From the NCBI GenBank assembly GCA_945878115.1, contig CAMDVD010000009.1, positions 1-64,000 of the forward strand: a stretch of 64,000 nucleotides of DNA, read 5' to 3'. The stretch's first letter is position 1, and every line of letters starts with the position of its first letter. The translations under genes were made by a program, and so were the position numbers. The notes under the pieces were generated by a model, which saw only the letters and a list, made by a program, of their open reading frames with translations, searched no databases and was not told where the DNA came from. Source of the stretch: Chitinophaga pinensis. Its GTDB lineage: Bacteria > Bacteroidota > Bacteroidia > Chitinophagales > Chitinophagaceae. Shown in pieces: positions 12,361 to 51,688 of this stretch.

Positions 12361-12610
12361 GAAATATGAGTTTAAAAGTATCGAATAAAAATTTGAGACA
12401 TCTGTTGATGCTGGCACCAAAATTCTATATTCGCTATTGCCACTCACCTACAACATAAAATCAAATTCATATATCATTATCCCATCACTCAATCCTCTAT
12501 AAATGTAACACACCTTTACTAGCAAACAAACTTTTTTACAAATTCCTTTTTGAAATTCAGGAAATCATCTTTTTGCCACTTATCAATTCTATATTTATTT
12601 GTCAGTATTT

Positions 12611-12690
12611 CGCGTTAGGGATAGAACGGAAATCCTTTTTTTTTCTTCAAAAAAAAGATTGGAGTGATAGCCCGACCCGAAGGGGAACGC
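12611..12690 (+). repeat. Chimeric or divergent relative of the hairpin-bearing dispersed repeat (CGGAAATCC-CT9…A8G-ATTGGAGTGATAGCCCG)
   Basis: Shares CGGAAATCC + T/A hairpin + GATTG core with the copies at 44016 and 51563; outer flanks differ. Confidence 0.5.
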
Positions 12691-17191: not shown

Positions 17192-17245
17192 TGGATTTAT
17201 TTTTAATTTTTAAGCGTAATACTAAATTTTATATGAAAATTATTT

Positions 17246-17383
17246 GGGCGGCAGATACGTCCTGACGATAAATGTCAGGATCCGTTTCCGCTCAAAGCAG
17301 CGGAATGGAGACTTTTCACTTCAATCTTTTTGCTTCAAAACAAGCAAAAAGGATTTTCGTTACAATCGTTGCCGCAATACATC
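17246..17383 (+). repeat. Hairpin-bearing dispersed repeat, copy 1 (138 bp, three hairpins)
   Basis: GGGCGGC…CCTGAC/GTCAGG, TTCCGCT/AGCGGAA, CTTTTTGCTT/AAGCAAAAAG…CGTTGCCGCAATACATC. Confidence 0.9.
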
Positions 17384-17429
17384 TGCAATTAAATATAATT
17401 TTGCTCATGACATTTTTGTGTATACATTT

Positions 17430-17783
17430 TTAGCAGCATTTGTTTTTTTTGATCTCTAGTTTGGTAGACATATTTGTAAAATATTTTTGCAGTAGTGCAA
17501 TTGTTTTTTCATCGATGCAGTAATTAATAGCATTTCCTTCAATACTACCTTTTATCAGTCCTGCATTTTTCAATTCTTTCAGGTGTTGCGATACTGTAGG
17601 TTGTGCAAGTGATAATTCATTGACGATATCACCACAAATGCAATCTTTGATTTTTATTAAATATTCAATAATAGCTATACGTGCTGGATGACCTAATGCC
17701 TTCGTCAATGTTGCGATGGCATTTTGTTTATCTGTAAAATTTTCAGTCTTCGTTGCGCCCATTTGTCTATTTTTATATTGCAA
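17430..17783 (-). CDS. arsR: ArsR-family winged-helix metalloregulator
   Basis: LGHPARIAIIEYL…CICGDIVNELSLAQPTVSQHLKELKNAGLI; C-terminal KNKCC. Confidence 0.9.
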   Translation of the reverse strand: MQYKNRQMGATKTENFTDKQNAIATLTKALGHPARIAIIEYLIKIKDCICGDIVNELSLAQPTVSQHLKELKNAGLIKGSIEGNAINYCIDEKTIALLQKYFTNMSTKLEIKKNKCC

Positions 17784-34573: not shown

Positions 34574-34608
34574 TAAGGCGTAAGGCATAAGGCGTAAGGC
34601 GTAAGGTG
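34574..34608 (+). repeat. Short heptad array (five GTAAGGC units)
   Basis: gtaaggc gtaaggc ataaggc gtaaggc gtaaggt. Confidence 0.9.
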
Positions 34609-34665
34609 GCATTTGCAATTAAGCATTTACCATTGGCAATACTAAAAATGAAATGAGAATATTTT

Positions 34666-34804
34666 GGTCGGCATACACGTCCTGACGATAAATGTCAGGA
34701 TCCGTTTCCGCTCAAAGTAGCGGAATGAGGACTATTCCTTCCAATCTTTTTTGCTTCAAAGCAAGCAAAAAAGGATTTCCACTCAATCGTTGCCGCAAAA
34801 CATC
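34666..34804 (+). repeat. Hairpin-bearing dispersed repeat, copy 2 (139 bp)
   Basis: Same three hairpins as copy 1; third stem lengthened on both arms (T6/A6). Confidence 0.9.
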
Positions 34805-35003
34805 CAACCTACAAAATGATGTGCTCATTACGTATTTAGTTTAGCCTTACAATTAAACATTTACCATGTAGAAATGAGGTTTTGTGCATGTATTTTACAG
34901 GTGTATCTGCTTACACATAGGACGCCGCACTTTCCGTATATATTTGGAATTAAAAATAATACTTTATACTTGCAAAAATTTTACACAACCAGAAACGGTA
35001 AGC

Positions 35004-43841: not shown

Positions 43842-44015
43842 GTTTTTTAATTAGATAAATAAATATTTTTTTCAGTTCAATAGACGAAGGGCTATTTTAA
43901 TTTGTTAGCAAGATTGCAAATTAATTTTCAATTCAATAATTATCCATTTTTATGTAAGTAAAATAAATCGGTAATGCCATACGAAAATTGTTAAGAGAAA
44001 ATGGTTTCTATAGAA

Positions 44016-44153
44016 GATGTATTGCGGCAACGATTGAAGTGGAAATCCTTTTTGCTGGCTCTGCAGCAAAAAGATTGGAACGTAAAGTCTGGATTCCTTT
44101 TTTCTAATCAGAAAAGGATCCTGATATTTATCATCAGGACGTGTTCGCCGCCC
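44016..44153 (-). repeat. Hairpin-bearing dispersed repeat, copy 3 (138 bp, inverted orientation)
   Basis: CCTGAT/ATCAGG and CTTTTTGCTG/CAGCAAAAAG stems; GATG[T]ATTGCGGCAACGATTG and GCCGCCC ends. Confidence 0.9.
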
Positions 44154-44252
44154 ATCCTGTAGCATTAATTTTTTTTCAAAAAATACGCTACAGCAGAGCT
44201 CTCATGACATTTTTGGTATTGCAACAAATAAAATCCTTTGAGCTGAAGGCTT

Positions 44253-51439: not shown

Positions 51440-51562
51440 TAAACTTTTTAAAAATTAGTCTGCGAAAATAGAAATAATAAAGTGGATTCGTTGTTTTCAA
51501 TGGAATAATCCAGAAAAAAATGAGTTCACTAAAAATGTAATAAGAAAGAATTTTTTATTGTC

Positions 51563-51648
51563 GATGTATTGCGGCAACGATTGCAGCGGAAATCCTTTTT
51601 GCTTGCTTTGAAGCAAAAAGATTGTAGCGAAAAGCGTGTGGGCCGCCC
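51563..51648 (-). repeat. Hairpin-bearing dispersed repeat, copy 4 (86 bp, hairpins 1 and 2 absent)
   Basis: GATGTATTGCGGCAACGATTGCAGCGGAAATC + CTTTTTGCTT/AAGCAAAAAG + GCCGCCC. Confidence 0.9.
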
Positions 51649-51688
51649 TAATAATGTTATTTATAAATTGAGTAAAGCCAAAAATAGA

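Follow-up and report, generated by a model that had tools for sequence, protein, structure and literature searches.

An intergenic repeat that probably forms the core of a MITE-like element carrying the Flavo-1 fold

Rfam has listed Flavo-1 (RF01705) since 2010, typed as an sRNA without an assigned function. Weinberg et al. (2010, PMC2864571) reported it for the Bacteroidetes and did not count it among the probable cis-regulators or switches. In Flavobacterium psychrophilum, transcriptomics placed several 5' transcribed regions at Flavo-1 matches; the matches as a whole lay both sense and antisense, and many were untranscribed (PMC9723704). The literature that mentions Flavo-1 is sparse, and we found in it no link of Flavo-1 to transposition. 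Among bacterial MITEs, QMITE2 of Coxiella has terminal inverted repeats (TIRs) of 23-29 bp and direct repeats of 7-9 bp (PMC10969869), and MITE families with common TIRs and different interiors have been reported in P. gingivalis (PMC4596501). The RAYTs of subclass 2.6 are described as being flanked by secondary structures of an atypical kind, which have further copies in the genome (PMC6006769).

The window analysed here, a stretch of 64,000 nucleotides, belongs to a genome of 3.58 Mb in 101 contigs (G000). A preliminary description placed in it four copies of an intergenic repeat, at 17246-17383 (+), 34666-34804 (+), 44016-44153 (-) and 51563-51648 (-). Upon re-reading of the window sequence, all four lie where they were claimed and contain the stems attributed to them, including the change from CCTGAC/GTCAGG to CCTGAT/ATCAGG. 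The same description left open whether the family was new and itself named a match to a known Rfam family as speaking against its reading; comparison with Rfam identified the repeat as the catalogued family RF01705. The model matches copies 1, 3 and 4, on the opposite strand from that used previously, and a fifth copy, with scores of 61, 51.7, 49.5 and 48.5 bits at the four places (gathering cut-off of 42 bits); copy 2 scores under the cut-off. Since the structure line of Rfam already contains short helices and 3x3 loops, these matches mean that the unit was catalogued, but as a 76-nt motif only. The fifth copy (12607-12681, +) is divergent, was found by the search of the window with the Rfam model, and has another outer frame (TTCGGGTCGGGCTAT...ATCCCTAACGCG). 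It is part of a Flavo-1 subfamily framed by TTCGGGTCGGGCTAT..ATCCC and devoid of the GGGCGGC end, to which loci L055 and L054 also belong. This copy, the Rfam match, and the closing stem, short covarying helices, TIRs and target duplications described below had been overlooked.

An alignment of 107 copies with both ends reveals a modular build. On the Flavo-1 strand, the core consists, in order, of the stem GCGGCA/TGCCGC, short helices with GNA/GNA or GA/GA loops and a terminal hairpin. With this closing stem, the three hairpins first described become arms of a single multibranched structure; folding of the 138-bp copies gives z-scores from -3.8 to -6.5. The commonest form is short (79-87 bp) and has the frame GGGCGGC..ACG-CTN-(TNC)-RY-(TNC)-AAT-hairpin-(TNC)-RY-(TNC)-N'ATCGTTGCCGC, the hairpin slot of which is occupied by at least four unrelated hairpins among the copies while the frame and the pairing are kept. 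Copy 4 (51563-51648, -), between purC and trpS, has a short-form core and gives the 61-bit match to RF01705 on the + strand. The 138-bp form differs from the 86-bp short form by a 52-bp module of two hairpins, inserted between ACG and C, which makes the fold multibranched; forms of 92-94 bp and 111 bp have one extra hairpin each. The long-form core of copy 1 (17246-17383, +; RF01705 match and Flavo-1 fold on the - strand, the match at 17312-17366) contains this module at 17260-17311 (+), between the ACG and the CT of the short form, as delimited by comparison with the short form and with a relative. In the long-form core of copy 2 (34666-34804, +), upstream of topA, the module lies at 34680-34731 (+), and in that of copy 3 (44016-44153, -), where the second hairpin is replaced by CCTTTT..AAAAGG, at 44088-44139 (-).

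Selection had been proposed to act on a folded strand on the basis of stem differences between the window copies. These differences are present but anecdotal, and the decisive covariation is found in helices of one or two base pairs and in loop lengths. In 71 of the 73 parsable copies the isolated N:N' pair is of Watson-Crick type, and pairing holds at the two RY/RY helix positions in 62 and 68 of them, respectively, whereas the maxima reached in 5000 shuffles were 50-51 of 73 copies, which strongly supports the proposal. The lengths of the internal loops also covary (48 copies have 3/3, 17 have 2/2 and a single one is discordant). GNA/GNA and GA/GA loops resemble sheared G.A motifs. By analogy with these motifs, and as the loops read this way on the Flavo-1 strand only, it is probably this purine-rich strand that folds; minimum free energies of folding did not separate the two strands.

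Outside the core, the well-preserved copies have degenerate TIRs of about 22 bp (GGCWAWACTAAAAATGTAATGA) that are imperfect and start with GGC, for a total element length of about 160-215 bp. The TIRs and target duplications sit about 31-70 bp and about 45 bp beyond the ends given in the preliminary description. Scanning the genome with the TIR pattern returned 51 matches (0 for the reversed control). TIRs are recognisable at both ends in 38 of the 107 copies, and the agreement between copies is 59%. When the TIRs of these 38 copies were placed by consensus alone and the flanking 8-mers compared, the latter agreed at 59% against 37% for shuffled flanks. The signal is specific to duplications of exactly 8 bp (z = 8.2, compared to at most 3.1 at 4-7 and 9-11 bp), and the agreement rises to 79% for the 10 copies whose TIRs are best. 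In copy 1, a TIR consensus match begins 31 bp ahead of GGGCGGC in the left arm (17215-17245, +), the right arm spans 17382-17426 (+), and the flanking TTTTTAAG (17207-17214) and TTTTTAGC (17427-17434) are identical at 6 of 8 positions, the 8-bp signal being family-wide. Copy 2 is bounded by TTACCATT (34627-34634) and TTACAATT (34847-34854), identical at 7 of 8 positions; its left arm (34635-34665, +) has the TIR GGCAATACTAAAAATGAAATGA, with two mismatches to the pattern, and its right arm (34803-34846, +) has a TIR at 34825-34846 on the - strand. A short tandem repeat, GTAAGGCGTAAGGCATAAGGCGTAAGGCGTAAGG, lies directly upstream of this copy, at 34575-34607. The arms of copy 4 (right, 51522-51564, -; left, 51649-51679, -) are flanked by ATTTTTTT (51514-51521) and CTATTTTT (51680-51687), with 6 of 8 positions identical. 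In copy 3 the target duplication is unconvincing (4/8); the right arm spans 43975-44017 (-) and the left arm (44154-44223, -) contains the TIR TGCAATACCAAAAATGTCATGAGA and an additional palindrome, TGTAGCGTATTTTTTGAAAAAAAATTAATGCTACA. The same palindrome, at times in tandem, lies between the TIR and GGGCGGC in many left arms (e.g. L018, L019 and L024), and in the window it occupies 44154-44194.

The insertion of the element can be read directly at locus L094. In G000 the locus reads TTATT[ACTAAATG]GGCTTTATTAAATTT...TTTTTAGTTTAGCC[ATTAAATG]ATAC, and its relative G013 has a clean empty site with a single ACTAAATG, reading TTATTACTAAATGATAC. It is this empty site that exposed the TIRs beyond the ends previously given. 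Locus L067 is a second site where the element is absent in G013. The element is short, non-coding, dispersed and present in high copy number, with 93 of the 104 placed copies being intergenic. The label of MITE-like, one of the two put forward earlier, is right for this lineage, given the TIRs, the 8-bp duplications and the empty sites. Our main reading, to which we would give a probability of about 0.8, sees in the repeat the core of a non-autonomous, MITE-like element that carries the Flavo-1 fold as a structured and itself constrained cargo and is mobilised in trans. There is good support for a MITE frame (TIR and 8-bp duplication) around the Flavo-1 fold and for the exchange of modules and hairpins at fixed sites; beyond this, we infer the transposase, the mechanism of exchange and the function of the fold in place. 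The copies would have been inserted by a cut-and-paste (DDE) transposase that acted on the TIRs and produced 8-bp duplications, and that may since have been lost or be missing from the draft assembly.

Neither the draft genome nor the genus yielded an autonomous element with this TIR; in the stretches examined, the 51 genomic TIR matches correspond only to Flavo-1 copies and to a second MITE family. Multi-copy insertion sequences can drop out of draft assemblies, and there are many MITEs without a parent in the same genome. Target duplications of 8 bp are a property of the IS1595 family and would fit a parent of this kind, but the IS1595-type transposase loci of the genus have other ends, without this TIR. 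The second MITE family accounts for about 14 of the 51 matches; it has its TIR in common with the Flavo-1 element and its interior is GCTCCCTTCTCCTGGAGGAGAAGGGTTGGGGATGAGGT..GAAAATTTAGTAAAGCC (loci L255, L257-L261, L263-L265, L267 and L270-L273 in G000). Another, fresh MITE, single-copy in the sequence searched, is found in G013 (L236:5177-5422), with the TIR GGCTCACATTAATTAGCTGGGGAG and a perfect 8-bp duplication (TCTTTTTT), inside the hairpin of a Flavo-1 copy.

G013 and G000 are collinear, at 93-95% identity, along most of the window region that was matched; the comparison covered 25 orthologous sites. A recognisable core is found in both species at 18 sites; in G013, the element is absent from 5 of the 25, one is interrupted by another MITE and one is ambiguous. 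At 5 of the 18 sites with both cores the long form of G000 corresponds to a short form in G013. These include window copies 2 and 3, whose modules are absent in G013. Swaps of hairpins and gains or losses of modules could arise when the numerous copies undergo ectopic recombination or conversion with one another, or through hairpin-mediated deletion. The element might be regarded as a neutral, decaying MITE without any function in place, in which the covariation goes back to master copies or was propagated by gene conversion. The decay of the target duplications and TIRs is in line with this, and the hairpin mosaics suggest conversion. Nevertheless, the core is 96.5% identical between orthologous sites of G000 and G013, compared to 87.5% for its own arms, and it is the better conserved part at 16 of 17 sites, a comparison partly biased by the fact that the counted copies had to keep their end motifs in both species. 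With this caveat on the counting, the Flavo-1 core is constrained after insertion. Moreover, orthologues are closer than paralogues (96.5 vs 86.8%), so that conversion alone is no full explanation, and the class as a whole has kept the fold, in frames unrelated to one another. We therefore hold a purely neutral element to be unlikely, and prefer a MITE-like element with a constrained cargo.

The type assigned by Rfam suggests another interpretation, in which the fold would be that of a structured, functional RNA, either a cis-regulator or an sRNA, with the repeats as its scattered copies. The strong covariation, the phylum-wide conservation of the fold, the presence of GNA/GNA or GA/GA loops on the Flavo-1 strand only and the F. 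psychrophilum 5' transcribed regions all agree with it. Yet, the four possible gene arrangements are about equally represented among the contexts of 93 copies (27/25/21/20), and co-directional contexts are split 25 vs 27 between the strands (p = 0.89). The orientation of the genes around the copies is thus random, which makes a strand-specific cis-RNA unlikely. It agrees with the sense and antisense matches of F. psychrophilum, many of which are not transcribed (PMC9723704). The number of copies, from 1 to at least 87 inside one genus, also speaks against a dispersed functional RNA, and we see this explanation as about as improbable as the neutral one. In a MITE-like element, the Flavo-1 fold may instead persist because the folded hairpin acts in place in either orientation relative to the neighbouring genes. 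If so, its likeliest role would be to form a structural boundary irrespective of strand, as an intergenic hairpin for processing, pausing or protein binding, and not to regulate particular genes, a suggestion that we make only tentatively.

The other label of the preliminary description, REP-like, was examined through the RAYTs (HUH/Y1 transposases), which would move the element as folded single-stranded DNA with the hairpins as recognition sites. Their involvement was tested because G000 contains six RAYT genes (L047-L051 and L053) similar to group 5 (subclass 2.6), for which atypical flanking structures have been described. Several of these genes have their own inverted multi-hairpin flanking repeats, for instance CTACGAAACGTCTTTCGTTTCGTAG plus TTGCTTTCAGCAA around L050 and L051. 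The hairpin architecture and high copy number of the repeat are congruent with RAYT mobilisation, as is the presence of these six genes, two of which have a Flavo-1 copy at less than 500 bp. Nevertheless, the RAYT genes whose flanks were read bear other hairpins close to them, inward of the Flavo-1 copies, and Flavo-1 was found within about 2 kb at only 3 of the 80 RAYT loci scanned in other genomes. HUH transposition leaves no target duplication, contrary to the 8 bp duplicated here. Two closed genomes show no bias of the copies relative to replication (36 vs 26, p = 0.25), and the REP foot 5' GT[AG]G was not found in the repeat copies. The REP-like label is thus unsupported, and mobilisation by RAYTs was rejected as very improbable.

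Matches to the 17-mer of the right end with up to 3 mismatches number about 175 in G000 (90 + 85), against 2 (1 + 1) for the reversed control, which puts the repeat well beyond what chance would give and its copy number at about 175. Flavo-1 was detected in 47 of the 297 genomes sampled across the phylum, and the wide range of copy numbers within the genus implies that the amplification is lineage-specific. Viral contigs yielded three exact matches to the end motif, at chance level and without the frame, and plasmids yielded no match to the repeat. Loose clusters of Flavo-1 were observed in two genomes, at L334 (G025, contig C102) and L336 (G244); the same-strand copies of G025 have a further flanking repeat in common. 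These clusters and the interchangeable terminal hairpin could evoke integron attC sites, in which the folded strand has a conserved outer part and a variable terminal hairpin and forms arrays with genes. However, the genes scanned between the clustered copies are of ordinary chromosomal types, with no site-specific integrase among them, and the copies of G000 are dispersed singly. Integron-like arrays were consequently rejected, and an attC-like nature is even harder to credit than RAYT mobilisation.

The TIR is absent from the other members of the genus save for three lone matches at chance level, though some of them have tens of Flavo-1 copies. In named Flavobacterium loci and in genomes of the same class and order, the core is found in other outer frames, without this TIR. 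An unanchored scan for target duplications in other genera had no power, as the positive control was missed too. The TIR frame is thus specific to this lineage and the Flavo-1 core is the part common across Bacteroidota, which means that the MITE frame accounts for the amplification in this lineage and not for the whole Rfam family. One may speculate, with less confidence than for the boundary function, that Flavo-1 is a portable cargo of folded DNA (or RNA) whose strand-indifferent function is selected by the host, that several mobile frames have captured it independently in the Bacteroidota (the TIR MITE with 8-bp duplications in this lineage, TAGCCC..GGGA frames elsewhere), and that its resident copies undergo whole-hairpin swaps while keeping their G.A-rich helical core. 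In this lineage at least, the TIRs, 8-bp duplications, empty sites and hairpin exchange recast Flavo-1 as the cargo of a mobile element. This status would caution against taking genomic matches as regulatory RNAs, and it turns the phylum-wide conservation of the interior of a mobile element into a testable question.

The repeat can finally be compared to the known systems. Like the REP/RAYT repeats of Bacteroidetes (subclass 2.6, group 5; PMC6006769), which occur in the same phylum and genome, it is a many-copy intergenic hairpin repeat, but Flavo-1 does not correspond to the cognate hairpins that flank RAYTs and its element has a target duplication. Bacterial MITEs such as QMITE2 of Coxiella (PMC10969869) and BrickBuilt of Porphyromonas (PMC4596501) are likewise short, AT-rich, intergenic, bounded by TIRs and target duplications and mobilised in trans. 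Contrary to them, the element described here has as its interior a strongly covarying fold that is conserved phylum-wide. The pneumococcal BOX elements are modular small repeats with a variable number of internal units and a stable fold; their build is alike, in another sequence and another phylum. With RF01705 itself the core is common, and the Rfam structure line (3 bp, 1x1, 2 bp, 3x3, 2 bp, 3x3, 4 bp, hairpin) is the fold found here. Yet the Rfam entry, 76 nt long and typed as sRNA, is devoid of the outer GCGGC stem, the TIR, the target duplication, the two-hairpin module and the exchangeable hairpins. What was already known is therefore the 76-nt motif, to which the present analysis adds the MITE frame, the two-hairpin module and the exchangeable hairpins.
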